Shown: positions 8,894 through 23,912 of the stretch, piece by piece
Layout: every line of letters begins with the position of its first letter
Position numbering within the stretch: position 1 is the stretch's first letter
Assembly: GCF_000478195.2 (NCBI RefSeq)
Contig: NZ_AUZM01000014.1
Coordinates: 1 to 64,000, forward strand
Reading direction: 5' to 3'
Source: Lyngbya aestuarii BL J
GTDB taxonomy: Bacteria; Cyanobacteriota; Cyanobacteriia; Cyanobacteriales; Microcoleaceae
Length of the DNA stretch: 64,000 bases
Made by a program: the position numbers and the translations under genes
The notes under the pieces: generated by a model
Databases searched by the model: none
What the model saw: the letters and a program-made list of their open reading frames with translations, nothing else
Told to the model about the DNA's origin: nothing

Positions 8894-9712
8894 ATGACTT
8901 TTAATCAAAAACACGCGATTATTACGGGGGGTTCGAGTGGGATTGGGAAAGCGACAGCGAAGTTGTTAGCTGCATCGGGGGCGAATATAACAATTATTGC
9001 TCGTTCTGCGGAGAAATTAGAAACAGCGAAAGCGGAAATTGAAGCGGTTAAATTACAGTCTGAACAGCGAGTTTTTACGCAAGTTGCGGATGTTTCTGAT
9101 CGCCTGATTCTGGAAAGGGTTATTGAAAATTCTGTTAAGGAATTGGGCGCTCCCGATATTTTAATTACATCGGCAGGAATTTCGATTCCGGGTTATTTTC
9201 AAGATTTGCCCATCGAAACTTTTGAAGAAACAATGGCGATTAATTATTTTGGTTCGTTGTATGCAGTTCGGGCGGTTTTGCCTTATATGGAACCGCAGAA
9301 ACAGGGTAGTATTGTGCTAATTTCGTCAGGTGCGGGATTGATTGGAATTTATGGTTATACGCCCTATTGTCCGTCAAAGTTTGCATTACGAGGGTTGGCG
9401 GAATCTTTGCGAGGGGAACTAAAACCGTTAGGAATTCAAGTAACAATTGTTTATCCGCCTGATACGGATACACCGCAATTAGAAGCAGAAAATCAGACGA
9501 AACCCCCGGAAACAAAACAGATTACCGAAACGGCGAAAATGTGGCAACCTGAAGATATTGCTCAAGAAATTCTTGGCGGAATTAAAAAGAATAAATTTGC
9601 TATTACACCGGGAATTGAAATGACCTTGTTGAGTCGGTTGCATAGTTTGTTAGCGCCGGGATTAAATTGGTCTTTTGATCAAATTGTTACTCAAAATCGA
9701 AGGAAAAAATAG
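8894..9712 (+). CDS. Short-chain dehydrogenase, 3-ketodihydrosphingosine reductase-like
   Basis: 272 residues. Classical SDR features: TGGSSGIGKATA (cofactor-binding Rossmann motif, residues 11-22), a structural NAG-like site (ITSAGIS) and a YxxxK catalytic pair in YCPSKFALRGLAESLRGELK. The stretch VYPPDTDTPQLEAE is characteristic of eukaryotic and bacterial KDSR-type reductases, which reduce 3-ketosphinganine. That substrate is inferred from the motif. There is no nearby serine palmitoyltransferase, so another ketone substrate is possible. Confidence 0.85.
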   Translation: MTFNQKHAIITGGSSGIGKATAKLLAASGANITIIARSAEKLETAKAEIEAVKLQSEQRVFTQVADVSDRLILERVIENSVKELGAPDILITSAGISIPGYFQDLPIETFEETMAINYFGSLYAVRAVLPYMEPQKQGSIVLISSGAGLIGIYGYTPYCPSKFALRGLAESLRGELKPLGIQVTIVYPPDTDTPQLEAENQTKPPETKQITETAKMWQPEDIAQEILGGIKKNKFAITPGIEMTLLSRLHSLLAPGLNWSFDQIVTQNRRKK

Positions 9713-9733: not shown

Positions 9734-10126
9734 CTAGGGTTTGTAAACAAGGCTTAAATATTCTCGATAACTGCAAATTTTATTGTCTCGAACATCAAAG
9801 GAAATGGCAACTTGATTGTTATAGGGTTTTCCAAACATTAAGCCTTCAGATTTGCCCTCAAAAACAACAGTGGTTTCATTAAAAGTAGTTCGTTCGAGGG
9901 TGAAAAATAAACCCTGACTAAATACTTTCTCAGACACATAAGCTAAAAATTCAGCCATGCGTTCTTTTCCTTCATTTAACCCTTGATAGGGGCCTGCGGG
10001 AAATGAGAACGTAAAGTCATCACTCAACATAGCAATGAATTGTTCCCATTCTCCTGTGGCTAAACCGTGACGAAAATGTTCAAAGGCTTGTTGGGCAGTT
10101 TCGAGCGTTTGTTGTGTTCCTTTCAT
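9734..10126 (-). CDS. NTF2-like/SnoaL-like protein
   Basis: 130 residues. The pattern of an N-terminal helix (AFEHFRHGLATGEWEQFIAMLSDD), FSFPAGPYQG and a C-terminal strand pair (ISFDVRDNKICSYREYLS) fits the NTF2-like alpha+beta barrel. Members bind small hydrophobic ligands or act as isomerases or hydrolases; no catalytic set can be assigned here. It is the first of three minus-strand genes before the methyltransferase. Confidence 0.7.
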   Translation of the reverse strand: MKGTQQTLETAQQAFEHFRHGLATGEWEQFIAMLSDDFTFSFPAGPYQGLNEGKERMAEFLAYVSEKVFSQGLFFTLERTTFNETTVVFEGKSEGLMFGKPYNNQVAISFDVRDNKICSYREYLSLVYKP

Positions 10127-10172
10127 CGATACAAACTAGAGACAATTGTTGCAATTATAGCCTCTTTTACGA

Positions 10173-10451
10173 TTAGATTGTATCAATTTCTTCCTCTAGT
10201 ATTCGCAAAATTCGAGAAAGATATTCTGTTCGCCATTGTTCTCGGTTTTTGGAAGTTTTTTCATCGGGTTGATAGGTTTCAATTTCTGATGTTGATAAGA
10301 TTCCTTTTGTTTCTAACACCCGTTCTACGGTATCTAAACGTTCGCGGAGTACAGAAACTTCACCTGCTAACGCCATAATTATTCCTAACAATTTATCCTG
10401 TTGAGGATCGTTGAGGTAAACGGGGCGTTGTCCTTTTGCTGTTTGTACCAT
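10173..10451 (-). CDS. Hypothetical coiled-coil protein
   Basis: 92 residues, no family recognised. A short N-terminal segment (GQRPVYLNDPQQDKLLGIIMALAGEVSVL) leads into a heptad-like helix (RERLDTVERVLETKGIL) and a charged helical tail. It is soluble and lies 18 bp downstream of the methyltransferase stop, so probably in the same transcript. Confidence 0.6.
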   Translation of the reverse strand: MVQTAKGQRPVYLNDPQQDKLLGIIMALAGEVSVLRERLDTVERVLETKGILSTSEIETYQPDEKTSKNREQWRTEYLSRILRILEEEIDTI

Positions 10452-10469
10452 TAGATTGTTTTCTAATAC

Positions 10470-11627
10470 TTATTTTTGGGCAGTGATCACAAACCAAGTC
10501 GGACGGTTGCTAACGGGGGGTGTTTTTTGATAAGAATAATTTTGGGGTGTTTTACAACTATATTTGCGAATAAAGTTTTCACTCACTTTTTCCGAGTTAA
10601 AACCCGCTTTTTTAACAATAGCAGTTAAATCTAACTCTCGCATTTCACCCCAAAAAGGTTCGTTGTTGTTTATGGTTTGCCAGTCGGAAATAAAAGCTGT
10701 ATAAGCATCCATATGGCGGTATAAAGGCGCATCTAGATGAATCATAATCCCACCGGGCGCTAGTAAGCGATAAGATTCTCGCATGACGTTTTCAATGGCA
10801 GAAGCGGGTATTTCATGCAACAAAATATGAGAGACAATTAAATCAAATGTTCCGTCGATAAAGCTGGTTTTTTCGGCATTTTGTTGGGAGAATTGGACTC
10901 GTTTCTTTAAGGCTTCTGCCCGAGCGTGACCGTAGTGTAACATGGGTGAACCAATATCAATCCCATGAATTTCTGCATCGGGATAAGCATCAACATAGGG
11001 AAGGGTGCTGTGACCGACTGCACATCCCATATCAAGAATTTTTTTAGGTTGAAAATGAGGATAATTTGGTTGGAGATAATTTTGAATAATGGAATGCCCC
11101 ATGTTATCATTAAGCGTTCCCAACCAACCCAAACCATAAACATAAACACCCCGATCATAAACGGCACCGGCTGCGAGATCATTTTCAATAATTTCAGTAT
11201 GATATCCTCCCGGCATACAATGAATATCAACTTCGCTCATATAAGCGGGTGTTTGGAAGTTAGGATCGAGAATTAAAGAACCAATTTGATTTTGTATATT
11301 TTTAGCTTTTTTAATCAGATCGGGAAGTTGACGTTCAACGCTTGAACCCACCGACTCCCACATCATTTCCTGTTGAAATCGCTTTAAAATACTCCACCAA
11401 TGATAATAGGATTGAGTTTGCATTTCTTGTAAAATTTCATGGCGATTTTCGGGAACACGTTGATGTTTTTCTTCAAAATTAGGCTTGACATTTTTTTCAT
11501 AAACTGTCTTAATTCCCGATCCCATTTTACGATTCACATAAAGAGATAGGCTCTGCACAAAGTTTTGACGGGCTAACTCATCATGGGTTGTCTGCGGGAG
11601 AATTGCGTGTTTAAATTGTGCGTTCAT
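10470..11627 (-). CDS. Class I SAM-dependent methyltransferase
   Basis: 385 residues. An unusual 190-residue N-terminal region rich in aromatic and charged residues precedes the Rossmann methyltransferase. Motif I reads ILDMGCAVGHSTLPY (about residues 192-206), the acidic ribose-binding residue is in IHGIDIG, and motif IV/V is FDLIVSHILLHEIP, followed by YRLLAPGGIMIHLDAP. The core is closest to methyltransferase type 11. The substrate is unknown; the cluster to its right suggests a small-molecule pathway. Confidence 0.85.
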   Translation of the reverse strand: MNAQFKHAILPQTTHDELARQNFVQSLSLYVNRKMGSGIKTVYEKNVKPNFEEKHQRVPENRHEILQEMQTQSYYHWWSILKRFQQEMMWESVGSSVERQLPDLIKKAKNIQNQIGSLILDPNFQTPAYMSEVDIHCMPGGYHTEIIENDLAAGAVYDRGVYVYGLGWLGTLNDNMGHSIIQNYLQPNYPHFQPKKILDMGCAVGHSTLPYVDAYPDAEIHGIDIGSPMLHYGHARAEALKKRVQFSQQNAEKTSFIDGTFDLIVSHILLHEIPASAIENVMRESYRLLAPGGIMIHLDAPLYRHMDAYTAFISDWQTINNNEPFWGEMRELDLTAIVKKAGFNSEKVSENFIRKYSCKTPQNYSYQKTPPVSNRPTWFVITAQK

Positions 11628-11972
11628 GGTTTAGGTGGTGTCAAGAAAAAAACAAGGTTCTATGGTCATAATTCCCCCAATATTGGGAGTTGTGCGAGTT
11701 CGATGCAAGGCTGACAGTCAGAGAAGTTTGAGGTTAAAATTGGGTATTGAGATTAAGGCTATCTCGAACTCAGATTAGGATTGATTAGCTATTTAAATCT
11801 TCCTAAAGATTGACTGTTGTTTGCTGTATGGGTTGATACTGCATTTATATATCGAATTTGGTAAAATTTATATACTCCCCAATTATTTTTCAAGGTTAAA
11901 TTAAGAATAACTGGAAAATTTACTATTGGGGTTTTGATTAATCAAATGAAACAAGTACAGTATTTTTGAAAG
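11628..11972. other. Intergenic region between divergent genes
   Basis: It contains the starts of the methyltransferase (minus) and the Rid protein (plus). The only clear structure is a perfect 12-bp palindrome CCCAATATTGGG at 11676-11687. It is AT-rich near 11840-11960, and no confident -35/-10 pair was picked. Confidence 0.4.
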
Positions 11973-12404
11973 ATGACAAAGCGCGAAGTTATTATCCCTG
12001 AAGGAATGGAAATTCTCTATGAAAAATTTCACTATTGTCCCGGAATTAAAGTCGGAAACACATTATATATTTCCGGTCAAGTGGGCCGTGATAAAAATTT
12101 ACAAGTTGTTGAAGAAATAGAAGCCCAGTTTGTTCAAGCCTTTGAAAATGTTAAGGCTGTTCTTAATGCTGCTGGAGGAAGTTTTGATGATGTTTTCGAG
12201 ATGATTACTTATCATGTAACCGGAACTCCGCCAACGACTCCCGAAGAACAAAAACAGTTTAAAATTCCGAATTTACAACTTTTTATACAGGTGAAAGACC
12301 GCTATTTTGTTAACCAGTATCCAACTTGGACCGGGGTAGGAATAACAGCTTTATCTACACCGGGTTTGTTAGTTGAAATTAAGTGTACTGCTATTTTAGG
12401 ATAA
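11973..12404 (+). CDS. Rid family protein lacking the RidA arginine
   Basis: 143 residues, slightly longer than RidA (about 128). Family features: VGNTLYISGQVGRD, EAQFVQAFENVKAVLNAAGG and YPTWTGVGITALSTPGLLVEIKC. RidA deaminates reactive enamines/imines using an arginine in a P-A-R motif. Here that position is Trp119 (YPTWT), so canonical 2-aminoacrylate deaminase activity is unlikely. An insertion, TGTPPTTPEEQKQF (about 84-97), also departs from RidA. It is better described as another Rid/YjgF subfamily of unknown activity. It is convergent with the reductase gene. Confidence 0.85.
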   Translation: MTKREVIIPEGMEILYEKFHYCPGIKVGNTLYISGQVGRDKNLQVVEEIEAQFVQAFENVKAVLNAAGGSFDDVFEMITYHVTGTPPTTPEEQKQFKIPNLQLFIQVKDRYFVNQYPTWTGVGITALSTPGLLVEIKCTAILG

Positions 12405-12416
12405 GCAAAATCTCAA

Positions 12417-13424
12417 CTAAAATTGAACGACAACTTTTCCACAGTTTTTCCCTCCGAGTAAGTAATTAACCGCAGAGGGAATAGATTCAATTCCTTTAAA
12501 TTCGGCCGAATCAATTGCAACTTGAATTTGACCGGATTCGAGTAAATGAAATAAACGATTTCTAGCTTCTAAACTGTATTTTTGATAAAGTGGCATCAGA
12601 AAACCTCTAACTGAAGCCCCTTTCCAAAAGATTTTTTCATAAATTCTGGGTTGATTTACCACTTCTAATTGTTCTGCATATTCGGAGATAAAACCAACGA
12701 CAATTAAGCGACCTCGAACGGCTAAATTATCAACGCAAACATCAAATATTTTGCGACCAATACATTCAAAAACCAAGTTAATTCCCTCTGGATATTCTTG
12801 CTGAAGCACCTCGTTTACATCTTCTTTTCGATAGTTAATTACCCGGTCGCAACCCAATTTTTTGAGTAGGTTGGCTTTGGCTTCTGAACCGCAAGTTCCG
12901 ATTACATGATTTCCCGCTAATTTTGCCACTTGAACGGCTATGTGTCCGGTTCCTCCTGCTGCTGCGGTGACTAATATTGTCTCTTGAGTTGTCATTTCTC
13001 CCACCTGTTCTAAGGCGACTAAAGCAGAAATTCCGGTGGGAATTAATGTTAAAATTTCTGGGGTTGCTTGGGGAACTTTGATGGCGAGGTTTGCATCAAT
13101 TACCTGATATTCGCTATAGCCACCCCCCCGAATTGTTGTGGCGACAGCATCACCTATTTTTAAAGTGGTAATATTTTGACCAACCGCTACGACTTCCCCC
13201 ACCGCTTCAACGCCCAATTCAAAGGGCGGAGTGGGTTGAAAATAGGGAATCTTTCCTTGAGATAATAAAGTATCAAAACCGGCATTGACTCCAGCAAATT
13301 TATTTTGAATGACAATTTCATTATCTGCGGGTTCAAGTAAGGGAACTGTAATGATTTCAATAGCGGATTTAAAGTCGCTACTAATTTGATTTGCAACTAA
13401 TTTTTTGTACGTTTTCGGGTTCAT
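12417..13424 (-). CDS. Medium-chain (quinone oxidoreductase-like) NAD(P)H reductase
   Basis: 335 residues. A GroES-like N-terminal domain (NKFAGVNAGFDTLLSQG, PPFELGVEAVGEVVAVG) precedes a nucleotide-binding domain with AAAGGTGHIAVQVAKLAG and the downstream VINYRKEDV, a typical zinc-free MDR pattern near prostaglandin reductase 3/ZADH2-like enzymes. Such enzymes reduce alpha,beta-unsaturated ketones with NADPH. Its start touches the neighbour: the hydrolase stop is at 13425, one base away. It is the last gene of the 18130-to-12417 operon. Confidence 0.88.
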   Translation of the reverse strand: MNPKTYKKLVANQISSDFKSAIEIITVPLLEPADNEIVIQNKFAGVNAGFDTLLSQGKIPYFQPTPPFELGVEAVGEVVAVGQNITTLKIGDAVATTIRGGGYSEYQVIDANLAIKVPQATPEILTLIPTGISALVALEQVGEMTTQETILVTAAAGGTGHIAVQVAKLAGNHVIGTCGSEAKANLLKKLGCDRVINYRKEDVNEVLQQEYPEGINLVFECIGRKIFDVCVDNLAVRGRLIVVGFISEYAEQLEVVNQPRIYEKIFWKGASVRGFLMPLYQKYSLEARNRLFHLLESGQIQVAIDSAEFKGIESIPSAVNYLLGGKNCGKVVVQF

Positions 13425-14249
13425 TTAATTGGGTGTCTCATCTAAAAAGTTAATTACGGCTTCAGTAACTTCTTGATAAACTTGATTCATCATACAAATT
13501 GTACCGCTAGCAATTTCAACAACTGTGTTATTCGGGATAACTTGAGAAACAAAATGGCGTTTTTCGGCTGCGGCTAACCCCAAACGTTCAAATTCATAAA
13601 CATCATCTAAACCCCATAAAATAAGGGTTGAACATTGAATTAAACGAAATCGTTCTTCCGCTTCTAAACAATAATTTTTAACCGCCCAAACTGCATACAA
13701 AGGATGACCAAAACATTTTAAATCATCCAATACCCAACGATGATTAAGTTCAGCCGAACCTATATAACGAGAACGGGCTAACCAACGTTTCATTAAATGT
13801 GAACCATCGGGTTGAATTTGAAAGCCAATGTCATAAAATTCAGAGAGTTTGGCTTGTCCAGCTTCTCCAAAACCCGCAACATTTCCTAAGATTAATTTCT
13901 TGACTCTATTGGGGTAAGTGGCTGCAATTTCTCCGGACACAAAAGCCCCAGTATGATTTCCTAAAATGCAAGCTGTTTCGATTTTGAGTTCATCTAAAAG
14001 AGCAATTGCCGTTTTAGCATAGTCAGAAATTGTGTACATTCTCGGGGGTTTATCGGAGTCTCCAAACCCCATTAAATCCATTGCAATGACTTTTTTTGTT
14101 TGGGCTAAAATCGGCATTAATTCCCGATATTCGTCACCACTGCGAGGATTCATATGTAATAACAGTAAAGGTTCTCCCTCTCCCGCGATTCGGTAATGGA
14201 TTTGACCATCTTCTGTGTCTAAGAAAGCTCGTTTTATTTTTATATTCAT
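13425..14249 (-). CDS. Alpha/beta hydrolase fold protein without classical triad, copy A
   Basis: 274 residues. The fold is clear: LLLLHMNPRSGDEYRELMPIL for the oxyanion loop, DLMGFGDSDKPP and LILGNVAGF. The nucleophile elbow reads GNHTG (97-101), with His99 where Ser, Asp or Cys belongs. The usual catalytic His position near the C-terminus reads SGTICMMNQ (248-256), with Thr250. No Asp is obvious at the usual acid site beyond WGLDDVYEF. It shares MMNQ, HLMxRWL and LNHRxVxDDLKCFG with copy B, 19 bp away. It may be a binding protein or use different chemistry. Confidence 0.85.
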   Translation of the reverse strand: MNIKIKRAFLDTEDGQIHYRIAGEGEPLLLLHMNPRSGDEYRELMPILAQTKKVIAMDLMGFGDSDKPPRMYTISDYAKTAIALLDELKIETACILGNHTGAFVSGEIAATYPNRVKKLILGNVAGFGEAGQAKLSEFYDIGFQIQPDGSHLMKRWLARSRYIGSAELNHRWVLDDLKCFGHPLYAVWAVKNYCLEAEERFRLIQCSTLILWGLDDVYEFERLGLAAAEKRHFVSQVIPNNTVVEIASGTICMMNQVYQEVTEAVINFLDETPN

Positions 14250-14268
14250 GGTTTTTAAATTAATGAAT

Positions 14269-15087
14269 CTATGAAGTTTTTAAGAAATCGTCCACTAACT
14301 TGCAAATATTTTCAGGTTGTTGATTCATCATCCAAAGCGTACCATTTTCAATTATAATCTCTTGAATGTCAGGAATAGACTCAGATAGCCAAGTTTGATT
14401 TTCTGCTTTTGCTAAACCTGCTTTTTCTAAGGGTTCTAACGCTTTATCTCCGGTTAAAACTAGAGTTGGAGATTGAATCTGTTTAAATCTTTCTTTTGCT
14501 AACAAACAGTAATTTGCTACAGCAACACCCGGATAGACAGGAAAACCAAAGCATTTTAAATCATCAATCACACAACGATGATTTAACTCTCCATTTCCTA
14601 CATAATTAACACGAGAAAGCCAACGTTCCATTAAATGAGAACCATCTTCTTTTATTTTAAATCCTATTGAATATCTTTGCACAATTTTTTGCTGTTCTTC
14701 GGCATCAAATCCATGCACATTACAGAGAATTAATTTATTAACTCTTTCTGGATAAATCGCCGCCAATTCTCCCGCAATATAACCGCCCGTTACACTTCCG
14801 AGAACGTTGCTTTTTTCTATCCCCAACTCATCCCAAAGTGTAATAATGTTTTGAACATAATCAGCGACAGAATACTCTCTAGGCGGTTTGTCTGAATCTC
14901 CCAACCCCATTAAATCCATTGCAATCACTTGTTGACTTTCGGCTAAAATGGGGATAATTTCTCGAAATTCATCGCCGCTTCGAGGTGTCATGTGTAGGAG
15001 TAAAATAGGTTCTCCTTTGCCAGCAATTCGGTAAAGAATTTGTCCGTCTTCTGTGTCTAAATATGCTCTTTTCACTGGCTGTTTCAT
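14269..15087 (-). CDS. Alpha/beta hydrolase fold protein without classical triad, copy B
   Basis: 272 residues, aligning without gaps to copy A over most of its length. The elbow is GSVTG (97-101) with Val99 at the nucleophile position, and the C-terminal His site is NGTLWMMNQ with Thr250. Conserved between copies are LHMxPRSGDEFRE, DLMGLGDSDKPPREY, GSHLMERWLSR and LNHRCVIDDLKCFG. Conservation of these blocks while the catalytic positions differ suggests a retained but non-hydrolytic or atypical role. It is inside an operon of closely spaced genes. Confidence 0.85.
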   Translation of the reverse strand: MKQPVKRAYLDTEDGQILYRIAGKGEPILLLHMTPRSGDEFREIIPILAESQQVIAMDLMGLGDSDKPPREYSVADYVQNIITLWDELGIEKSNVLGSVTGGYIAGELAAIYPERVNKLILCNVHGFDAEEQQKIVQRYSIGFKIKEDGSHLMERWLSRVNYVGNGELNHRCVIDDLKCFGFPVYPGVAVANYCLLAKERFKQIQSPTLVLTGDKALEPLEKAGLAKAENQTWLSESIPDIQEIIIENGTLWMMNQQPENICKLVDDFLKTS

Positions 15088-15128
15088 TATCTAAATTTTT
15101 ATTTTGAACAACAATTAAATTCCCAATT

Positions 15129-15575
15129 TTATTGCATTCGTTCTTCCTGAATTAAAGTGCGTTGATAGACTTGATTGTTTTTGAACCATTGCCAAGTGCG
15201 GGCGCGATAATTGTTACAAGGGCTAATTTGAATCATTTCATAAATATAAGCATCCGGTACGCCTTTATAAGCCAACCACAAAATCAGAGTAGATTCATCT
15301 GCTTCCCACGCTTTTCCGGTAATGCGTTCAGTATCAAAAATAAGTTTGTTATCCTGATAGATGCCCGGGAATTGATGTTCTTCTTGTTTACCATTTTCCC
15401 AGTGATAACGGTTGATTTGAAAGTAGGGATAATCCCCTGTTTCGGGAAATTGACAGGTTAAATGAGATTGATGTTTATCGATAATTTTCCCTTCCGTATT
15501 AACGAGGGTATAGCTTCCTGTCCAGTCTCCTTCATGGCGGGCTAAAACGGGCATTTTTTCGCGCAGATTGGACAT
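15129..15575 (-). CDS. DUF3598-like lipocalin-type protein
   Basis: 148 residues. The sequence (MPVLARHEGDWTGSYTLVN, HLTCQFPETGDYPYFQINRY, WLAYKGVPDAYIYEMIQIS and NNYRARTWQWFKNNQVYQRT) looks like the cyanobacterial DUF3598 family, predicted beta-barrels related to lipocalins. The family assignment is from memory of its pattern and is moderate. It has no signal peptide. It may bind a small hydrophobic ligand handled by the neighbouring enzymes (inference). Confidence 0.65.
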   Translation of the reverse strand: MSNLREKMPVLARHEGDWTGSYTLVNTEGKIIDKHQSHLTCQFPETGDYPYFQINRYHWENGKQEEHQFPGIYQDNKLIFDTERITGKAWEADESTLILWLAYKGVPDAYIYEMIQISPCNNYRARTWQWFKNNQVYQRTLIQEERMQ

Positions 15576-15677
15576 AATTTATTCTCCTCTTTTAAATTTA
15601 TAATTGTACTTTGAGGATATCTGATTTTAACAGAAGAATAAGATTGTTTTTCATTGTTTATGAACTTTTTAGTTTTG

Positions 15678-17084
15678 TCAATACCACCAGGGGTCTACAA
15701 CGGGTTGTGTTTTGGTTAAGAGGGCTTTTTTGCGGAAAAATCGAGCCATTGAAGCCGCCCCCATTCGTGAACCTCCCAAACCTGAAGATTTAAACGAATT
15801 TTTTTCACCTTCATTAATTAAAGCGGTTAACCCTGCATCATTAATACTAATTGCCCCGGCTTCTATCTGTTGGGCGACTTCTAATGCTTCTGTTTGTGAA
15901 GCAGCAAAAACAGCCGCACTCAACCCATAAACGCTATCATTTGCGAGTTTAATTGCTTCTTCTTTCGAGGTAAAAGTCATTATAGGCATGACCGGGCCGA
16001 AGGTTTCTTCGGTTATTATTTTCATGTTACGATTAACACGGGTTAATACCGTCGGACGACACCAAAATCCTCCGTTTAATTCTTCGACTTGACCCCCACA
16101 ATTAATAATTGCTCCTTTTTCAGTTGCATCTAATAAATGTTCAGCAATAATAGTTGCTTGTTTGGCTGAAATAATCGGCCCAATTTCACCGTTTTTGATA
16201 TCAGAATAGTTGAGAGATAACTGACTGGCTTTATCAACAAGTTTATCAACAAAATAATCGTGAATTGATTCGGCTACATAAATCCGTTCTATGGATAAAC
16301 AAGACTGTCCGGCATTAATCACAGAACCCCATAAAATCGCTAAAGTTGCTTGTTCTAAATTAGCAGATTCTAAAACAATAGCCGGATCTTTTCCTCCCAA
16401 CTCTAAAAACACCGGAATTAACTGTTTTGCAGCTAATTGTGAAACTTTTTTACCCGTTGAAACACTGCCAGTAAAACAAATTGCATCAACATTTTCAATT
16501 ATGATTTTGCCTGTTTCTCCTGCTCCTTGCATAAAAGACAAAACCCGATTTAACTGGGAAACAGATTCAATTGTTTTAACTAAAGGCTGAATAAATCTGG
16601 GAGTAATTTCACTGGGTTTAATGATGACTGCACATCCAGCCAATAACGCCGGAATTGCATCAATTAGAGACAGTAACAAGGGAAAATTCCAAGGACTAAT
16701 TACCCCAACTAATGAATAAGGAACGAGTTGAGATTTAATCTGAATAAACGGAATAGCTGTGTTTTTTTCTTCCGTTAAACAGAGTTCGGGTGCGAGTTTA
16801 CACCATCGCTCTAAACTGGAAATCACACCATCAACTTCCATGACTGACTCTCGAATTCTTCCTGTATCTTCAACCAAGGCTTGAATCAAAGCATCTTTTT
16901 CAGCAATAAGGACTTTTTTCCAGTTTTGTAAAACTTCAATTCTTTGATGAATATCTAACTGCCAGTCAATTTGAGATTGTCGTAAATTATTACACTGTTC
17001 AGCAATTTCTGTATCTGTAAGAGGTGTAATAAAATAATCAATTTTTCCAGTTCTGGGATTGCGAACTTTAATTTTCTTTTCCAT
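15678..17084 (-). CDS. NAD(P)-dependent aldehyde dehydrogenase
   Basis: 468 residues. It oxidises an aldehyde to a carboxylate. All expected residues are present: Asn133 in SPWNFPLL, Lys156 in IKPSE, Glu228 in LELGGKDP and catalytic Cys262 in GQSCLSIERIYV. The TGS motif (FTGSVSTGK) and EETFGPVMPIM are also intact. It starts 2 bp after the nitrilase-like gene ends, so the two are translated from one transcript. The substrate is unknown. Confidence 0.93.
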   Translation of the reverse strand: MEKKIKVRNPRTGKIDYFITPLTDTEIAEQCNNLRQSQIDWQLDIHQRIEVLQNWKKVLIAEKDALIQALVEDTGRIRESVMEVDGVISSLERWCKLAPELCLTEEKNTAIPFIQIKSQLVPYSLVGVISPWNFPLLLSLIDAIPALLAGCAVIIKPSEITPRFIQPLVKTIESVSQLNRVLSFMQGAGETGKIIIENVDAICFTGSVSTGKKVSQLAAKQLIPVFLELGGKDPAIVLESANLEQATLAILWGSVINAGQSCLSIERIYVAESIHDYFVDKLVDKASQLSLNYSDIKNGEIGPIISAKQATIIAEHLLDATEKGAIINCGGQVEELNGGFWCRPTVLTRVNRNMKIITEETFGPVMPIMTFTSKEEAIKLANDSVYGLSAAVFAASQTEALEVAQQIEAGAISINDAGLTALINEGEKNSFKSSGLGGSRMGAASMARFFRKKALLTKTQPVVDPWWY

Positions 17085-17086
17085 TT

Positions 17087-18130
17087 TTAAATTATTCCTT
17101 GCTGAATCAAGTTGTTAATCGTTGCTTGCTGAGTTTTAATAAAATGTTGGCGTTCTATCTCTCCTTCTAGCATTGTGTTGGCTGGATAAAAATGAGGTTG
17201 CTGATATGTTTCAGTATACAATCCTGAACGATGACGCGCCAATAAATTTTGAATCCCAGGGCGTTTGCGGTTGCGTCGGAGCGCCGCTAAATCAATTTCT
17301 GCAAAAGCTGCCATACTCTCACCCGCTCCCGTTTCAGCTAATAGAATCCCCCGATAGTCGATTATTTTTGAACCCCCATCAGTTGAAGAACTAGGAAGCG
17401 GAGTGTTAACAATTCCGGCAGTGTTAGCAGAGATAACATAAGCCATATTTTCCACAGCCCGAGACACTTTTGCAGCTTCTTTTGGCAGTCTTGCATGACC
17501 ATAAATTTCTGAAGTTGGATGTAAGAAAATTTCGGCTCCTCGGGTGGCAAAGGTTCGCGCTAATTCTGGAAATAATATCTCGTCCGAGGCGATAGTTGCT
17601 AAATTGCCAATTTCGGTTTTTGCCACCGGAAAAATCCCATCTAAACCATAACAATCTAGATATTTATCCCAAACATCGTGCGGTGTAGGCGTGTACATAG
17701 AATTTAACCGTCGATACCGCAAAACCATTATTCCAGATGGGTTAAAAATAAAGCAGCTTTGAAAGTATAAACTCGGAAAATTGGGATCAATTTCATAGGC
17801 ATTTCCGGCTAAAAATATATTGAATTTCTGTGCGATTTCTGCTAAAGTATCATAGATAGGATCATCCATTGCCAAACAAGCTTTCTGCGCCCAAATCCCT
17901 AATGCTTCCCCCATTGGAAAACCTGTTAACCAATATTCAGGAAGTAACACCAAACGACAGTCTGAACCAATAAACGCTAAACTGGTGGCTATTTTTCCCT
18001 CTAAACTCTCTACCGCTTTCGTCATAATGCTTCGGGCTTCGGAAGGACTACTCGCTAAATTAACCGCCTCACAAGTCAACTGAAGGGCTAAGGCTCGAAA
18101 AGATTCGATGCGCTCTGGATTTGCTGTCAT
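17087..18130 (-). CDS. Nitrilase-superfamily protein with Cys replaced by Ser
   Basis: 347 residues with the CN-hydrolase fold. The Glu is kept (Glu65 in LLPEYWLTGFP). The catalytic Lys position reads Arg141 (LRYRRLN where YRK is usual). The catalytic Cys position reads Ser182 (TIASDEILFPEL where ICYDxRFPEL is usual). Later blocks (RGAEIFLHPTSE, RAVENMAYVISANTAG) are normal. The protein therefore lacks two of three catalytic residues of ordinary amidases and nitrilases. It may be an atypical subfamily or non-catalytic. It is the first gene of a six-gene minus-strand operon. Confidence 0.85.
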   Translation of the reverse strand: MTANPERIESFRALALQLTCEAVNLASSPSEARSIMTKAVESLEGKIATSLAFIGSDCRLVLLPEYWLTGFPMGEALGIWAQKACLAMDDPIYDTLAEIAQKFNIFLAGNAYEIDPNFPSLYFQSCFIFNPSGIMVLRYRRLNSMYTPTPHDVWDKYLDCYGLDGIFPVAKTEIGNLATIASDEILFPELARTFATRGAEIFLHPTSEIYGHARLPKEAAKVSRAVENMAYVISANTAGIVNTPLPSSSTDGGSKIIDYRGILLAETGAGESMAAFAEIDLAALRRNRKRPGIQNLLARHRSGLYTETYQQPHFYPANTMLEGEIERQHFIKTQQATINNLIQQGII

Positions 18131-18256
18131 AGAAAATTAGGCTTGACTAATGTTCGTTGTGAAAAAATTTTACATCATTTGTATCCGATCAAACTACTTT
18201 TTTGGAGATTTAATTCTTACTCATAAACTAGGTTAATTCCATAACATTACTTAATA

Positions 18257-18283
18257 AATAAAAAAGTTAGCTGTGATGCTAAC
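18257..18283 (-). terminator. Rho-independent terminator
   Basis: On the minus strand GTTAGC-ATCACA-GCTAAC is followed by TTTTTTATTT. It lies after the 18381 gene and before the nitrilase-operon start, and would separate the two transcripts. Confidence 0.7.
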
Positions 18284-18380
18284 TTGTGCTAATATATTAT
18301 GAGTAAAGGTGCAAGATTCAGTACCCCAAAATAGCACCCTGACTCAAACTTTAAATTTCAAACTTTAAAGCTAATCGTGC

Positions 18381-18554
18381 TTACTCTTGATTCATTTGGC
18401 GTTCAACGGTTTCTATCGCCGCATTGAGTCCAGCCAGCCGAGTTTCGAGATCATCTCGCATCCACTTCATAAATTGCAGTTTGCGCTCTTGGTAGGCTTT
18501 GTGAGAACTAGATGAATTATCCCAATTCCAGCAAGGATTGAAGAAAGGAAACAT
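18381..18554 (-). CDS. Small hypothetical protein
   Basis: 57 residues when started at the ATG at 18554, which follows GAGG at a good distance; an upstream in-frame start at 18593 lacks one. It opens with an aromatic segment (MFPFFNPCWNWDN) and continues as a charged helix with LETRLAGLNAAIETVERQM. It looks like a conserved short cyanobacterial protein, but no function is known. Its gene follows the broken Uma2 copy. Confidence 0.6.
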   Translation of the reverse strand: MFPFFNPCWNWDNSSSSHKAYQERKLQFMKWMRDDLETRLAGLNAAIETVERQMNQE

Positions 18555-18619
18555 AGATACCTCTAAAATGACTCCATCTATATTTTGAAGCAAAAATCAA
18601 ATAATGGGTGGTCTGAGGC

Positions 18620-19480
18620 TTAAATTTGTTGTTGAACTTGTTCGATGCTGAGGTTGAGTGCTTCCGCCACCTGTTCAACACTTAAACCCATTCCCAACAA
18701 CCGAGGAATGGCATTTTTGCGCTCTTGTTCGGCTTGTTCGGCACGTTGCTTTTCTTGTTCGGCGCGTTCATCTCCTATTAATAACAAGTTACCTTCGTTA
18801 TCCCACCATCTTAACCACAATTGGTCTTGATTTTGATAGCGACCTTGCCACAATCCCAATTCAATTCCTAAAGGTAAAATCGGATAATGATTGCGTTCAT
18901 TGGGAGACATTTTTTGATAATAGCCGTTCCGATGAGTGTAAACTTCTAACTTGCTATTATTGATTTCATAAATACCGTAATAGGGAATGCGAATAATTTG
19001 CTCATAGACCCAAAATTTACCCGGTTTGGTTTTTTCTCCCGTTCGAGATAACGGTGTATTATCCCGTTCTTCGTCTCCATTTCCGCTAGCAAATTCTAAG
19101 GCAATTAAAGGAGCCATAAATTCCCGCCACAAGACATAAGAACGACGAATTTGACCGTCAAGTTTGGGCGGAACATTCGGAACATAAAACCAGTCCGGCG
19201 CTTCCGCTCCTTTTTCGGGCGGGTCAGTTTCTTGCCAATAAATCCCGCAGTCTTGACGAAGTCACAGCAGCTCCGGGAGCTTGCATCGCGGAGAACTGTG
19301 ACCGATGGCATATTGTCCGTCTGGATGAATTTTTTGTAAGATTGGGCCGATAGAATCTGTGAGTAAAATACTCTGGGGATGGTTATAAAAATTTTTTACA
19401 AAAGTACCATCCGACTCGGGGAGTTGAGTATGGTCTGGGAAAGGGGGTGGAAGTTCGATTTTTGAGGTTATCTCAGTCAT
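18620..19480 (-). pseudogene. Uma2 family gene interrupted by in-frame 45-bp insertion with stop
   Basis: Read from the ATG at 19480, the frame gives normal Uma2 sequence through DGQYAIG. It then enters the insertion (HSSPRCKLPELL) and stops at a TGA at 19262-19264. The same frame resumes with QDCGIYWQ and continues to a complete C-terminus (EFASGNGDEERD, FWVYEQIIRIPYYGIYEI). Removing 45 bp restores an intact frame matching the copies at 4799 and 5731. An internal Met at 19132 could start a truncated product but would lack the N-terminal third. The tail has a Glu/Arg coiled coil and LSVEQVAEALNLSIEQVQQ. Confidence 0.85.
19258..19302. repeat. 45-bp palindromic mini-insertion
   Basis: GTCACAG (19261-19267) and CTGTGAC (19296-19302) form a perfect 7-bp outer inverted repeat. 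Inside, AGCTCC-G-GGAGCT forms a second hairpin. GAC is present on both sides, consistent with a short target duplication. The boundaries come from comparison with intact Uma2 copies at about 5350 and 6344. Confidence 0.75.
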
Positions 19481-19550
19481 AGAAACGCGACTGAACAAAT
19501 TAAACTTACCTCTATTTTAACACAAAAAACCAAGATAATACCAAATTAAT

Positions 19551-21041
19551 TCATTGTTTTTTAGTCTTTCTATAGGGTCGTTTTAAATAACGTCCTTGAG
19601 GCGAACCGAGAATTTCTCCGTTGTGATAAATCAAATTTCCGCGAAGAAATGTACTTTTAACTCGTCCAGTTAATTCCATACCTTCAAAGGGAGTATAACC
19701 TTGTTGAGACGGGGATTCATCCGCTTGAACCGTAAACATTTCATGGGGATCAACTAACACCAAATCCGCATCATAACCCACAGCAATATCCCCTTTTTCT
19801 AACAGCCCAAATCGTTGTGCAGGATTCCAAGATAATAATTCAGCCATTTGATGATAAGGCATTCCGCGTTTATTTCCTTCACTAAAAACCCCAGATAGTA
19901 AATATTCAGTTCCGCCAAAACCTGACTTCGCTAACCAAATATTTTCGGGGTCTTTTTGAGAAACTTTTTGTTCCGCAGAACAACAAGCGTGATCGCTCAC
20001 AATCCAATCAATTTGACCGTTTAAAACCGCTTGCCATAAAAATTCTACATCCTCTCGCGGACGAATGGGAGGATTCACTTTTGCCCATTTTCTAGTCGGT
20101 GTATCTACATCTAAAAGTAAATGTCCGACGGTGACTTCTCGACGGAAATTAATATGAGGAAATGTCGCTTGCATCATCAAAGCCGCTTCAAGAGCTTTGC
20201 GAGAACTTAAGTGCAGTAAATTGATATTAATACAGTTAGTTTCATGGGCGAGGTAAGACGCAATACAAATCGCTAAACCTTCTGAATGAGGAGGACGAGC
20301 CGCACTATAAGCTTTTAGTCCAGTTAAGGTATTATCCTGTTGAACAATTTTAGTATAAGCACTCAATATTTCCGCAATTTCACAATGCAAACTCAAACTG
20401 AGATAATCTTGACAATCGGGATATTTTTCTCTCATTTGAGTTAAACTTCGCATGATAAACTCAAAGTGAGCCACGTCGTAGCGTTCTTCTTTATTTATCA
20501 TTAAAAATAAATTTTGCTGGTCAGATAATCCGTGCAACCCATAACCGCCATAAAACATAAAAATTTTAAACGAAGACACCCCAAACTCCTCAAACAGTTG
20601 GGGCATTTCTTCAAGATGTTGGGCGGCTATTGGAGCAACATGATACCCATAATCAACATAAAAATTACCCTCAGAAAGTGCTAAGACTTTCGGGAAAAAC
20701 TGATGGTAAGAACCACCTTGATTGAGATAATATTGACCTGTACGAATATAGTTTAAACTGGTTGTTACACCGCCCATTGCAGCCGCTTTGCTTTCGGTAA
20801 CAGCATCTTGGTTGAGGGGTTGATAAATCCCAACGTGCATATGAGCATCTACCACACCTGGAAAGGCTAAAAGGTGATTTCCATCGAAGGTTTGTTGAGC
20901 GTATTTAGGGTTAATATTCGGTTCAATTTTAACAAATTTTCCATTCTTAATCCCGAGATCAAGTGTTTCCACAGAAGGCTGATGAGGACGAATAACCTGA
21001 ACATTTTTAATCAGTTGATCAAAGGTAAAAGCTTCAGACAT
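19551..21041 (-). CDS. Dihydroorotase/hydantoinase-like amidohydrolase
   Basis: About 496 residues from the ATG at 21041; a GTG 15 bp upstream is less likely. The metal-dependent cyclic amidohydrolase set is intact: DAHMHVG (HxH), SFKIFM (carbamylated Lys), LSLHCE, LLHLSSR and SDHACC (catalytic Asp). Such enzymes open cyclic amides such as dihydropyrimidines, hydantoins or allantoin. Substrate specificity cannot be read. It is the only hydrolase in this neighbourhood with a full active site. It is transcribed with the AbrB-type gene, which ends 89 bp upstream. Confidence 0.88.
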   Translation of the reverse strand: MSEAFTFDQLIKNVQVIRPHQPSVETLDLGIKNGKFVKIEPNINPKYAQQTFDGNHLLAFPGVVDAHMHVGIYQPLNQDAVTESKAAAMGGVTTSLNYIRTGQYYLNQGGSYHQFFPKVLALSEGNFYVDYGYHVAPIAAQHLEEMPQLFEEFGVSSFKIFMFYGGYGLHGLSDQQNLFLMINKEERYDVAHFEFIMRSLTQMREKYPDCQDYLSLSLHCEIAEILSAYTKIVQQDNTLTGLKAYSAARPPHSEGLAICIASYLAHETNCININLLHLSSRKALEAALMMQATFPHINFRREVTVGHLLLDVDTPTRKWAKVNPPIRPREDVEFLWQAVLNGQIDWIVSDHACCSAEQKVSQKDPENIWLAKSGFGGTEYLLSGVFSEGNKRGMPYHQMAELLSWNPAQRFGLLEKGDIAVGYDADLVLVDPHEMFTVQADESPSQQGYTPFEGMELTGRVKSTFLRGNLIYHNGEILGSPQGRYLKRPYRKTKKQ

Positions 21042-21129
21042 AGTTGTAAGTTGCACAAGTTTAAATCTATGATACCTAAATTTTTGAAAAAACTTATTTT
21101 ATTTTATTTTTCTTTAAAACAATTAGCAA

Positions 21130-22191
21130 TTAGACATCTTTTTGGTCTTGTTTACTCACAAAAGCAGTTAGCCAGGGAGTCAATAAAAGAATCATTAACA
21201 TTCGAGTTAATTGCATCGCTAATACTAAGCTAGTATCACCGCCAAGCTGCACAACAGTTGCAATCATCGCTTCAAGTCCTCCCGGTGTTAAACCTAAAAT
21301 AGCAGTAACAATATCAACCTCTGCCACCCGATGAAATCCATATCCAATTGCTAAACAACAAATTATTAGCGAAATGACTAATACTGCTTCAATTAACACT
21401 GCTTTAAAGAGTTTACGAACCGTTTGAAAATCAAACTTCAATCCAATTGAAAGTCCGACAAATAACAATCCAATTTTAAATAACCATTGAGGGACTTGGA
21501 TATAGTCAGGAAACGTCCAAAAGACAATTAAACCGACAATAAATGTCCCTAGAAATCCTGATGCAGGTAGATTAAATTTATTTCCGCCCCAGATGCCTAG
21601 ACCACAACAAATTGCTAATATAAACAAATTGGAAACGAAAGGAATAGATAATTGATCTACTGTCAAAATAGGGATTAGATTTGGACTCTCAGAATTAGCC
21701 GGAAACAAGAAAGTTGCTAGAGTCGGAACAATCACAATTACTAACAATAAACGCAAATATTGAAACAAAGCAATTGCCACCGCATCTGCTCCCATTTCTT
21801 CGCCAATTGCCACAATACTCGACGCCAAACCGGGAATAAAAGCTAACAATCCCGTGACGCGATCAATTCCTGAAAAACGAGCTAATAAATAGCCATGAAA
21901 TAAGCTCATAATTCCGGTAATAGCAATACAAAGTAATAGAGGAATGGCATAATTAGCAGCAAGAATTAAAGTATCTGGAGAAAAGCGAACTGCTGTTGCT
22001 AACCCCAAAAAAGCCTTACCCAATGTCATAAAAACCGGAGGTAAGGGTTGAGAATAACCTAAAATCGTAGCATACAAAATCCCGACGATCATTGGCCCGA
22101 GTAGCCAACCCACCGGAATATTCAGCCAGTAGAATAAAAAGCCGACTGCTATTGCAAAGATAAACTGCTGAATTATTTTTTGAGGTTTCAT
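21130..22191 (-). CDS. AbrB family integral membrane protein
   Basis: 353 residues with about nine to ten hydrophobic segments and the AbrB/ammonia-monooxygenase-like duplication. GWLLGPMIVGILYA occurs early and GFLGTFIVGLIVF later, each followed by GLA or GLS repeats. LTPGGLEAMIA near the C-terminus is typical. Members are putative transporters or regulators of uptake, with unknown substrate. Its position before the amidohydrolase suggests import of that enzyme's substrate (inference). Confidence 0.85.
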   Translation of the reverse strand: MKPQKIIQQFIFAIAVGFLFYWLNIPVGWLLGPMIVGILYATILGYSQPLPPVFMTLGKAFLGLATAVRFSPDTLILAANYAIPLLLCIAITGIMSLFHGYLLARFSGIDRVTGLLAFIPGLASSIVAIGEEMGADAVAIALFQYLRLLLVIVIVPTLATFLFPANSESPNLIPILTVDQLSIPFVSNLFILAICCGLGIWGGNKFNLPASGFLGTFIVGLIVFWTFPDYIQVPQWLFKIGLLFVGLSIGLKFDFQTVRKLFKAVLIEAVLVISLIICCLAIGYGFHRVAEVDIVTAILGLTPGGLEAMIATVVQLGGDTSLVLAMQLTRMLMILLLTPWLTAFVSKQDQKDV

Positions 22192-22264
22192 CGGCTTGTA
22201 AAAATTGATAGGATTAACGACAGAAATTGGTGTATCCTAAATTATAGAGGTTTAATATTGCCCT

Positions 22265-23131
22265 ATGTCTTTTGGAAATCAACTCAGAACACGACTCGAA
22301 CAATCAGAAATTTTGGTAATTCCGGGTATTTATGACTGTTTGAGTGCTAAAATCGCTGAACAGTTAGGCTTTGAAGTTATCGCTACTAGCGGGTTTGGTA
22401 TTGCTGCATCCACACTCGGTTTACCCGACTATGGCTTTCTCACGGCGACTGAAATGTTTTATAGTATTGGTCGAATTGTTCAGTCCATTGAAATTCCGTT
22501 AATTGCAGATTTAGATACAGGCTATGGTAATGTTTTAAATGTAACTCGTACAGTTAAAGATGCGGTTAATGTAGGTATTTCGGGAATTATTTTAGAAGAT
22601 CAAGAATGGCCTAAAAAATGTGGTCACTTTGAGGGAAAACGAGTGATTTCCACAACCGAACAAATTGCGAAAATCAAAGCCGCAGTTGAGGCGAAAGCGG
22701 ATAGTAATTTAGTGATTATTGGACGGACAGATGCACGCGCACCTTTGGGTTTAGATGAGGCCATTAACCGAGGGAAAGCTTATTTTGAAGCGGGTGCTGA
22801 TGTGATCTTTATTGAAGCACCCCAGTCTGAAGATGAACTTGTTAAAATTGCTAATGCTTTACCCAATATTCCTTTAGTTGCAAATATCATAGAAGGCGGA
22901 AAAACACCGCAATTGTCAGCCCATGAATTACAACAGTTGGGGTTTAAAATCGTCTTTTTTCCGTTATCGGGTTTATTCACAGTAACCAAAGCAATGATGG
23001 ATTGTTTGCGTCAGTTGAAAGAAACAGGAACTACAGCTAATTTAAAAAACTTAGTCAGTTTTCAGGAGTTTGAGAAACTGATTGATGTCCCGAAATATCG
23101 TCAAATTGAACAGAAATTTGATCAGGAATAA
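22265..23131 (+). CDS. Isocitrate lyase/PEP mutase family enzyme
   Basis: 288 residues. The TIM-barrel family signature is clear: IPGIYDCLSAKIAEQLGF, ADLDTGYGN (metal-binding Asp residues), LEDQEWPKKCGHFEGK (the KKCGH loop with catalytic Cys) and IGRTDAR. Members cleave C-C bonds of 2-methylisocitrate-like acids, or P-C bonds, or decarboxylate oxaloacetate. The KKCGH loop favours a lyase. The exact substrate is unknown. It is divergent from the AbrB-type gene and 22 bp upstream of the N-acetyltransferase gene. Confidence 0.87.
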   Translation: MSFGNQLRTRLEQSEILVIPGIYDCLSAKIAEQLGFEVIATSGFGIAASTLGLPDYGFLTATEMFYSIGRIVQSIEIPLIADLDTGYGNVLNVTRTVKDAVNVGISGIILEDQEWPKKCGHFEGKRVISTTEQIAKIKAAVEAKADSNLVIIGRTDARAPLGLDEAINRGKAYFEAGADVIFIEAPQSEDELVKIANALPNIPLVANIIEGGKTPQLSAHELQQLGFKIVFFPLSGLFTVTKAMMDCLRQLKETGTTANLKNLVSFQEFEKLIDVPKYRQIEQKFDQE

Positions 23132-23153
23132 TGATCAAAATATTAAGTTTTAT

Positions 23154-23912
23154 ATGGACGTTGAAGCCTATCTAAACCGTATTCACTATCAAGGCTCTCT
23201 TGAACCCAATCTTGAGACGCTTCATCAACTGCATTGCTGTCATTTACTCACCGTTCCCTTTGAAAATCTTAGTATTCATCTCAACCAACCGATTCATCTC
23301 AATTTAGAAGCTTTATACACTAAAATTGTTCGACAAAACCGAGGAGGATTTTGTTATGAACTTAATTCTTTATTTTCTTGGCTCTTGCAAAAACTGGGTT
23401 TTAAGGTGACTCTACTTTCCGCTCAGGTGGCGCGAGAAGATGGTCATTTTGGGCGAGAATTTGGTCATTTAACGCTATTGGTAAAAGATAGAGATAATTG
23501 GTTAGCTGATGTTGGTTTTGGAGACTCATTTCTTTATCCTTTGAAGTTAGAAACTTTAACTGAACAAATCAAAAATGAAGAATATTATCAGTTAATAAAA
23601 GAGGATATTAACTGGATATTTTATCAAAAAAAGGATAACCACTATCAACCCAAATATTGTTTTACTTTAACACCTAGAAAACTAACAGATTTTCAACCCA
23701 CTTGTGAATATAATCAAACTTCTCCTCAATCTATTTTCACTCAGCGTCGTATCTGTACGAAAGCAACTCTTGAAGGTCGAATCACATTGAGCGATAATCG
23801 ATTAATAATCACCCAAAATGGTCAACGACAAGACTATACCATACAGACTGAAGCAGAATATAACAAAATTTTACGAGATTCTTTTGGAATTGACTTAGAT
23901 TTAAAATCTTAA
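23154..23912 (+). CDS. nat: Arylamine N-acetyltransferase
   Basis: 252 residues from the ATG at 23154; a longer in-frame start would overlap the preceding gene. The catalytic triad is visible: Cys67 in RGGFCYELN, His105 in FGHLTLL and Asp119 in LADVGFGD. LLTVPFENLSIH matches the family N-terminus. NATs acetylate arylamines and hydrazines from acetyl-CoA, and relatives form amide bonds in natural-product synthesis. It is probably co-transcribed with the gene at 22265. Confidence 0.92.
   Translation: MDVEAYLNRIHYQGSLEPNLETLHQLHCCHLLTVPFENLSIHLNQPIHLNLEALYTKIVRQNRGGFCYELNSLFSWLLQKLGFKVTLLSAQVAREDGHFGREFGHLTLLVKDRDNWLADVGFGDSFLYPLKLETLTEQIKNEEYYQLIKEDINWIFYQKKDNHYQPKYCFTLTPRKLTDFQPTCEYNQTSPQSIFTQRRICTKATLEGRITLSDNRLIITQNGQRQDYTIQTEAEYNKILRDSFGIDLDLKS

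Follow-up and report, generated by a model that had tools for sequence, protein, structure and literature searches.

A set of about ten metabolic genes lies within positions 9,734 to 23,912 of a 64,000-nucleotide stretch of Lyngbya aestuarii BL J (positions 1 to 64,000 of contig NZ_AUZM01000014.1, hereafter the window; contig C14 of the 6.86 Mb genome G000, which is in 437 contigs). These genes travel together through many cyanobacteria and are clustered in relatives far beyond chance. With a probability of about 0.5, they form a conserved, patchily distributed cyanobacterial set for the breakdown or salvage of some cyclic amide (a lactam, an imide or a cyclic ureide). A cyclic amidohydrolase (HYD), a reductase (QOR) and an aldehyde dehydrogenase (ALDH) would then be orthodox enzymes, and a nitrilase-fold protein (NIT), two alpha/beta-hydrolase-fold proteins (ABH1 and ABH2) and a Rid-family protein re-purposed ones. 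The original prediction, made from the window's letters alone, had proposed an uncharacterised metabolic cluster partly mirroring pyrimidine breakdown. Every gene that it named is an intact open reading frame (ORF) where it had placed it, and the families were checked here against Pfam and NCBIfam profiles. A real uncharacterised metabolic cluster is borne out by 80 loci and 386 genomes, whereas the pyrimidine analogy gives way on active-site residues and profile cut-offs.

Layout and recurrence of the gene set

The core of the cluster is a compact six-gene operon on the minus strand (12417-18130) with NIT first, followed by ALDH, a DUF3598-type protein, ABH2, ABH1 and QOR, and with intergenic gaps, in that order, of 2 (NIT/ALDH), 102, 41, 19 and 0 bp. 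The Rid gene is convergent with the operon, 12 bp past its end. HYD lies upstream of the operon, where it forms a second minus-strand pair with an AbrB-type membrane protein gene, the two separated by 73 bp. The genes on which the argument turns are:

9734..10126, minus strand: SnoaL-like small protein (PF12680, Pfam 45 bits)
11973..12404, plus strand: Rid-family protein (PF01042), Trp119 replacing the deaminase Arg (Rid4-7 type)
12417..13424, minus strand: QOR, MDR-family NAD(P)H reductase, enone/quinone reductase-like (PF00107/PF08240)
13425..14249, minus strand: ABH1, alpha/beta-hydrolase fold, nucleophile elbow with His99 (GNHTG), Thr250 in place of the usual catalytic His
14269..15087, minus strand: ABH2, 56% identical to its paralogue ABH1, nucleophile elbow with Val99 (GSVTG)
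15129..15575, minus strand: DUF3598-type calycin barrel, putative small-molecule binder (PF12204, 28.2 bits against a cut-off of 22)
15678..17084, minus strand: ALDH, NAD(P)-dependent, catalytic C262 and E228 (PF00171, 363 bits)
17087..18130, minus strand: NIT, nitrilase fold, E65-R141-S182 replacing the Glu-Lys-Cys triad (PF00795, 93 bits against 23.2)
19551..21056, minus strand: HYD, binuclear-metal cyclic amidohydrolase, allantoinase/hydantoinase-like, six ligands intact
22265..23131, plus strand: PEPM, PrpB-like lyase of the PEP mutase/isocitrate lyase superfamily (PF13714; TIGR02317 278.8 bits, below the cut-off of 354.4)

When GTDB genomes were scanned with an alignment of NIT, 345 relatives were returned, and the best 80 of the 345 loci, all cyanobacterial, were kept. 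The scan is biased towards cyanobacteria, as both search patterns were drawn from cyanobacterial proteins, and the neighbour counts are lower bounds, since only 53 of the 80 loci have at least 9 kb downstream of NIT. ALDH is present in 67 of the 80 NIT loci, in 61 of them within 1.5 kb downstream and on the same strand. DUF3598 is found in 43, HYD in 19, an Asp/Asn-hydroxylase in 18, ABH1 in 14, QOR in 12, SnoaL in 11, a cupin in 10, Rid in 8, a beta-keto acid cleavage enzyme (BKACE) in 7, the PrpB-like lyase and ABH2 in 5 each and the methyltransferase in 1. At least one of eleven further cluster genes accompanies NIT in 39 of the 53 loci with the longer downstream region, and at least three do so in 22. 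Conservation of the neighbourhood was the check that the original prediction had itself proposed, and NIT, ALDH, DUF3598, HYD, ABH, the reductase, Rid and SnoaL do co-localise in subsets of the 80 loci. Its inclusion of AbrB and the N-acetyltransferase (NAT) as members has to be dropped: each was found in none of the 80 loci, so that they stand beside the cluster in the window only. The methyltransferase that it also included recurs once, in L085, where this gene and the 92-residue protein paired with it again stand beside DUF3598 (40% and 50% identity, respectively).

Co-occurrence was then evaluated across 386 cyanobacterial genomes, with E-value limits of 1e-40 for NIT and ABH, 1e-120 for HYD and 1e-30 for Rid. 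With the window NIT as query, NIT is present in 22 genomes, the match in one of them (G300) being broken. HYD was found in 16, ABH in 11 and Rid in 5 genomes, and every one of these is also a NIT genome (hypergeometric P for the overlap 9e-24, 1e-15 and 4e-7, respectively, with relatedness ignored). Counted by genus the overlaps are 10/10, 9/9 and 5/5. In the 20 loci around these NIT matches, the window and G300 excluded, ALDH adjoins NIT in all 20, and DUF3598 is present in 15. Most carriers belong to one family (f6), and the set is also found in the window's family (f1) and in f22, where G060 (L038) has the order NIT-ALDH-DUF3598-ABH-QOR, with Rid on the opposite strand, nearly the order seen in the window. 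The distribution is patchy, since the 11 other listed genomes of the window's family have no NIT.

Of the 16 genomes having both genes, 6, the window's included, have HYD no more than 20 kb from NIT, and in the remaining 10 it is more than 20 kb away or on another contig. Its companions in these ten distant loci (L158-L167) are the Asp/Asn-hydroxylase (10/10), SnoaL (8), QOR (6) and the cupin (5). In L158, L161 and L162 the HYD/Asp-hydroxylase group is about 10 kb or less from mysA-mysC-like genes, with a thermolysin-like peptidase and a methyltransferase in between. We take these neighbours to resemble the mycosporine-like amino acid genes mysA, mysB and mysC, and a link of the HYD group to such compounds was considered and set aside as local synteny.

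Several loci appear to be losing members of the set. At G300:C45:141726-142118 (L044) what is left of NIT is a match of 131 residues interrupted by a stop, and ORFs of the ALDH and DUF3598 types persist nearby, an apparent recent loss of NIT. L185 (G125) has a gene resembling red-chlorophyll-catabolite (RCC) reductase beside ALDH and hisS, with NIT missing, which suggests a local loss. In L032 (G042) a partial HYD match (75% identity, about half length) lies beside QOR and ABH, and HYD may be decaying in this genome, as it has no HYD match at E 1e-120.

Orthodox and altered active sites

HYD and ALDH have the residues expected of working enzymes. The metal ligands of HYD (H72, H74, K164, H224, H282 and D355), assigned by alignment to 1nfg and family knowledge, each occur in no fewer than 19 of 20 proteins, in keeping with the intact hydantoinase-like amidohydrolase described by the original prediction. 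With an HxH motif, a Lys that would be carboxylated, two His and an Asp ligand, HYD is predicted to be a cyclic amidohydrolase. Its fold, judged by sequence, and its six metal ligands are shared with allantoinase, D-hydantoinase and dihydropyrimidinase. It differs from these in scoring below the cut-offs of all 25 NCBIfam models listed, of 52 matched, including those for allantoinase (TIGR03178, 240 against 357.85) and dihydropyrimidinase (TIGR02033, 197 against 393.25). ALDH keeps its catalytic Cys and Glu in at least 95% of 67 proteins and scores below the cut-off for succinic semialdehyde dehydrogenase (PRK09407, 351.7 against 521).

The closest HYD relatives in the plasmid collection are uncharacterised actinobacterial genes (55-57% identity). 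One, from Streptomyces (L126), adjoins an NMT1/THI5-type ABC importer, and one from Rhodococcus (L125) lies among CoA-transferase, CoA-ester-lyase, cyclase, amidase and hydantoinase A/B genes. The closest NIT relative in that collection, from Nonomuraea (L127; 53% identity over 79% of the query, Ser and Arg kept), has genes for two NMT1/THI5 binding proteins at a distance of about 6 kb or less. The ORFs of L126 and L127 were called in this analysis, as those records had no gene table there.

The original prediction had held that key active sites differ, and this is borne out for NIT, both ABHs and Rid. A CN_hydrolase fold is assigned to NIT by its Pfam score and by the predicted model (mean pLDDT 76, pTM 0.80). 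Aligned to 1ems and 1f89, however, it departs from the canonical Glu-Lys-Cys triad, with Glu kept, Lys replaced by Arg and Cys by Ser. All 80 proteins compared have these residues (Glu65, Arg141 and Ser182), one protein being the window's and 79 coming from the loci, with L080, truncated at a contig end, excluded. The model shares its fold, and the Glu, with the aliphatic amidase/formamidase branch (2uxy and 5g3o; for 2uxy, Z 28.6, rmsd 3.5 and 287 aligned residues). Unlike that branch, NIT belongs to a clade with a PTPHDVWD-like motif that includes Ala-variant archaeal and actinobacterial relatives. Relatives near 30% identity, from two haloarchaea and Tsukamurella, have Ala and Lys, and a Streptomyces relative at 26% has Cys. 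Ala replaces the catalytic Cys in the nitrilase-fold relatives of plasmid loci L128, L188 and L189 (haloarchaea and Tsukamurella), and the Tsukamurella variant sits in an apparent aromatic-degradation cluster with RidA and cyclase genes.

The nucleophile elbow holds His in ABH1 and Val or Leu in ABH2, and Ser, Asp or Cys is absent from that position in 20 of 20 ABH proteins with a readable elbow (of 21; that of L108 was not displayed). In both window ABHs, Thr occupies the place usual for the catalytic His, a C-terminal position for which the comparison covered the window pair and two relatives from plasmids. Two actinobacterial ABH relatives (34-37% identity) have GHHTG, and the ADH adjoining the ABH of Rhodococcus YL-1 is only 22% identical to QOR.

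Trp occupies the deaminase Arg position in all nine cluster Rids, the window's included, and the best PDB match of Rid is YjgH (1pf5). Excerpts of a 2015 paper (PMC4433059) report that Rid4 and Rid7 have Trp at this position and that their function was unknown. The cluster Rid likewise lacks Arg and has Trp but differs from the YjgH-like Rid4-Rid7 subfamilies in sitting in a defined metabolic gene set. As each family conserves its replaced residues, NIT, the ABHs and Rid have probably been re-purposed rather than decayed.

The AlphaFold prediction for the DUF3598 protein (pLDDT 94) has a short helical start followed by a calycin-type barrel of 11 strand segments. The nearest solved folds are BFA1 (Z 18.1), the Nostoc DUF3598 protein 2o62 (16.2) and nitrobindin (15.1), and further matches are the spirocyclases OssO (15.0) and OlmO (14.2), the phycobilin lyase CpeS (13.6) and Ycf58 (12.7). 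The model suggests a barrel that binds a small molecule, and nothing more specific.

These residues bear directly on the resemblance to pyrimidine breakdown. The parts list (HYD, a nitrilase-superfamily protein, Rid, ABH and ALDH) resembles that of a known reductive- or Rut-type pyrimidine, hydantoin or allantoin pathway, and the Rid and ABH folds stand, as in Rut, beside ring-opening and aldehyde steps. However, the Cys and Lys that mark beta-ureidopropionase are missing from NIT in 80 of 80 proteins, and the ABHs keep neither a nucleophile nor the C-terminal His. In Rid, Trp stands where RutC needs its Arg (9/9), the R104A variant of RutC being inactive according to excerpts of PMC8113886. 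The profile scores are also far below the cut-offs for RutC (38.1 against 169.1 bits) and RutD (35.5 and 40.8 against 238.5), and the cut-offs for dihydropyrimidinase and allantoinase are not reached either. By the features compared, a known pathway of this kind is very improbable, and the likeness drawn by the original prediction is not supported.

A possible pathway and its rivals

The gene content, clustering, co-occurrence and residue replacements described above were used to propose reactions, a pathway direction and a class of substrate. HYD, as a metal-dependent amidohydrolase, would open the ring, the MDR reductase would then saturate an alpha,beta-unsaturated carbonyl and ALDH would oxidise the aldehyde end to a carboxylate. 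In some genomes the PrpB-like lyase or BKACE might finish the carbon skeleton. NIT, ABH1/ABH2 and Rid could provide binding, isomerisation or elimination, or use an unorthodox nucleophile, on hydrolase and deaminase folds. In this scheme the ring-opening and aldehyde steps fall to orthodox enzymes and the remaining roles to unorthodox ones. Breakdown is favoured by the importer and CoA-lyase genes near actinobacterial HYD and NIT relatives, together with ALDH, the PrpB-like lyase and BKACE. The plasmid relatives were also considered as a guide to the substrate, and their contexts are too different to name one.

Several observations weigh against cyclic-amide breakdown by a single conserved set. 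Order and content differ widely between loci, and some full-length NIT loci, for example L048 and L104, are without any other cluster gene. Mirror-tree distance correlations with NIT are high for ALDH (r 0.94), QOR (0.91), HYD (0.88) and SnoaL (0.82) and lower for DUF3598 (0.63), but the housekeeping hisS control gives 0.84, so that vertical descent explains the tracking of NIT by the other genes and co-evolution receives no support. ABH1 (r 0.18) and Rid (r 0.44) do not follow NIT divergence and, with this different pattern, look like a separately moving module. The co-occurrence analysis covered HYD, ABH, Rid and the RCC-reductase family PF06405, at unequal E-value limits. A transporter was not recognised among the recurrent families of the 80 loci, part of which were covered by the Pfam scan, and AbrB is specific to the window. 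Sites matching GTAN8TAC, which we take to be the NtcA motif, occur upstream of NIT in 9 of 79 loci against 7.6 expected from mononucleotide shuffles, and control by nitrogen is thus unsupported. The genes for the Asp/Asn-beta-hydroxylase, cupin, SnoaL and methyltransferase fit biosynthesis equally well.

The variable order and content, the deviating divergence of ABH and Rid and the lone NIT genes would also be consistent with no single pathway at all, the region being one prone to recombination that collects accessory metabolic genes. This seems improbable, as every genome with HYD, ABH or Rid also has NIT, even when these genes are encoded elsewhere in the chromosome, and the window (f1) and G060 (f22) have nearly identical gene orders.

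Biosynthesis is the serious rival to breakdown, and on balance a doubtful one. The set would make or tailor a small natural product of neither polyketide synthase nor nonribosomal peptide synthetase (NRPS) origin. HYD would close a ring or trim an intermediate, and the altered proteins (NIT, ABH, SnoaL and calycin) would serve as cyclases or as condensation or isomerisation catalysts. Altered hydrolase folds are often re-purposed in biosynthesis, and the SnoaL, MDR reductase, cupin (DUF4437) and Asp/Asn-beta-hydroxylase neighbours, the methyltransferase in the window and L085, and the resemblance of the DUF3598 barrel to OssO and OlmO all suit such a role. Yet the hydrolytic site of HYD is intact, ALDH and the PrpB/BKACE-type cleavage enzymes suit breakdown, importer and CoA-lyase genes accompany the relatives found in heterotrophs, and neither a carrier protein nor a peptide ligase was recognised in the recurrent families, as far as these were scanned. 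Excerpts of PMC10381486 propose a cyclic amidohydrolase in the anabaenopeptin hydantoin pathway. Anabaenopeptin hydantoins were rejected as the substrate, no NRPS having been recognised in the scanned part of the recurrent families.

A quite unlikely alternative is that linear tetrapyrroles (bilins or chlorophyll catabolites) are broken down to monopyrrole imides, which HYD would then open. An RCC-reductase-like gene (PF06405, 79.6 bits) is shared by 27 of the 80 NIT loci, a pheophorbide-a-oxygenase-like Rieske gene is found in three, NIT is present in 9 of the 13 PF06405 genomes among the 386, and the DUF3598 barrel resembles CpeS and Ycf58. However, PF06405 has no match in the window's own genome at E 1e-5, 4 of the 13 PF06405 genomes are without NIT (in two of them the NmrA-like gene is the only one of the set adjoining PF06405), and among the genomes with NIT the presence of PF06405 shows no association with that of HYD (P 0.18). 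Calycin barrels accommodate a wide variety of ligands. The housekeeping gene hisS is an equally frequent NIT neighbour (30/80), and synteny therefore explains the PF06405 adjacency as well. The PF06405 gene is upstream of NIT in L054, L059, L063, L111 and others, often with an NmrA-like gene and sometimes in two copies.

A second histidyl-tRNA synthetase serving as a self-resistance gene was also considered for these hisS neighbours and rejected. Exactly one match (85-100% identical) is present in 10 of the 12 genomes searched, and hisS near NIT, being the sole hisS of its type in those ten genomes, is housekeeping synteny. The exceptions are G060, with a partial 37% match only, and G000, with none.

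A more far-reaching form of the cyclic-amide reading, which we hold tentatively and consider possible but rather unlikely, is a ring-opening pathway of a new kind, with NIT, both ABHs and Rid performing chemistry new for their folds, such as a Ser/Arg nitrilase-fold amidase or lyase, or an alpha/beta-hydrolase with a His elbow acting as a lyase or isomerase. If so, Rid4-7-type proteins and the Cys-less nitrilase clade would gain their first defined role. No description of the cluster was found in excerpts of the open-licence PMC literature; the superfamilies are known, and the subfamilies and their combination appear to be undescribed within the literature searched. The cluster ties three orphan groups, the Cys-less nitrilase clade, the nucleophile-less alpha/beta-hydrolase family and a Rid4-7-type protein, to one context, so that their roles can be tested jointly with HYD and ALDH as orthodox assay handles. 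Should the pathway be catabolic, many filamentous cyanobacteria, including the nitrogen-fixing genera Nostoc, Anabaena and Trichodesmium, would be recycling some nitrogen or carbon source or a metabolite of their own making.

Other features of the window

The remaining features of the region are:

10173..10451, minus strand: 92-residue protein, no Pfam match, paired with the methyltransferase
10470..11627, minus strand: SAM-dependent methyltransferase, 385 residues (PF13649), possible accessory member
18264..18285, minus strand: terminator-like hairpin between the upstream genes and NIT (consensus scan only)
21130..22191, minus strand: AbrB-type membrane protein, possible transporter, window-specific neighbour (PF05145, 269 bits; TIGR03082)

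Promoter- and terminator-like sites are not enriched over shuffles, with 15 terminator-like sites in the region against 12.2 expected. The listed NAT ORF (TTG start at 23082) overlaps the end of the lyase ORF, and the true NAT start is therefore probably further in. Of the window neighbours outside the set, the SDR (8894-9712), the tetrapyrrole methylase (8013-8822) and the LDH (24263-25264) are each found in 0 of the 80 NIT loci; a 69% match to the tetrapyrrole methylase does occur in one (L040) of the 20 loci around the NIT matches of the 386 genomes.

Between HYD and the operon, at 18620-19132 and upstream to about 19500 (minus strand), is the remnant of a Uma2-type gene, disrupted by a small insertion with a stop codon in frame. 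No second copy of this insertion was found in the window at 14-base words, and Uma2 genes of full profile length are present at 4799-5521 and 5731-6522. Across 32000-56000 the G+C content climbs from about 34-43% to 43-49%, and the genes there resemble, by eye, those for RND efflux and rpoB/rpoC.

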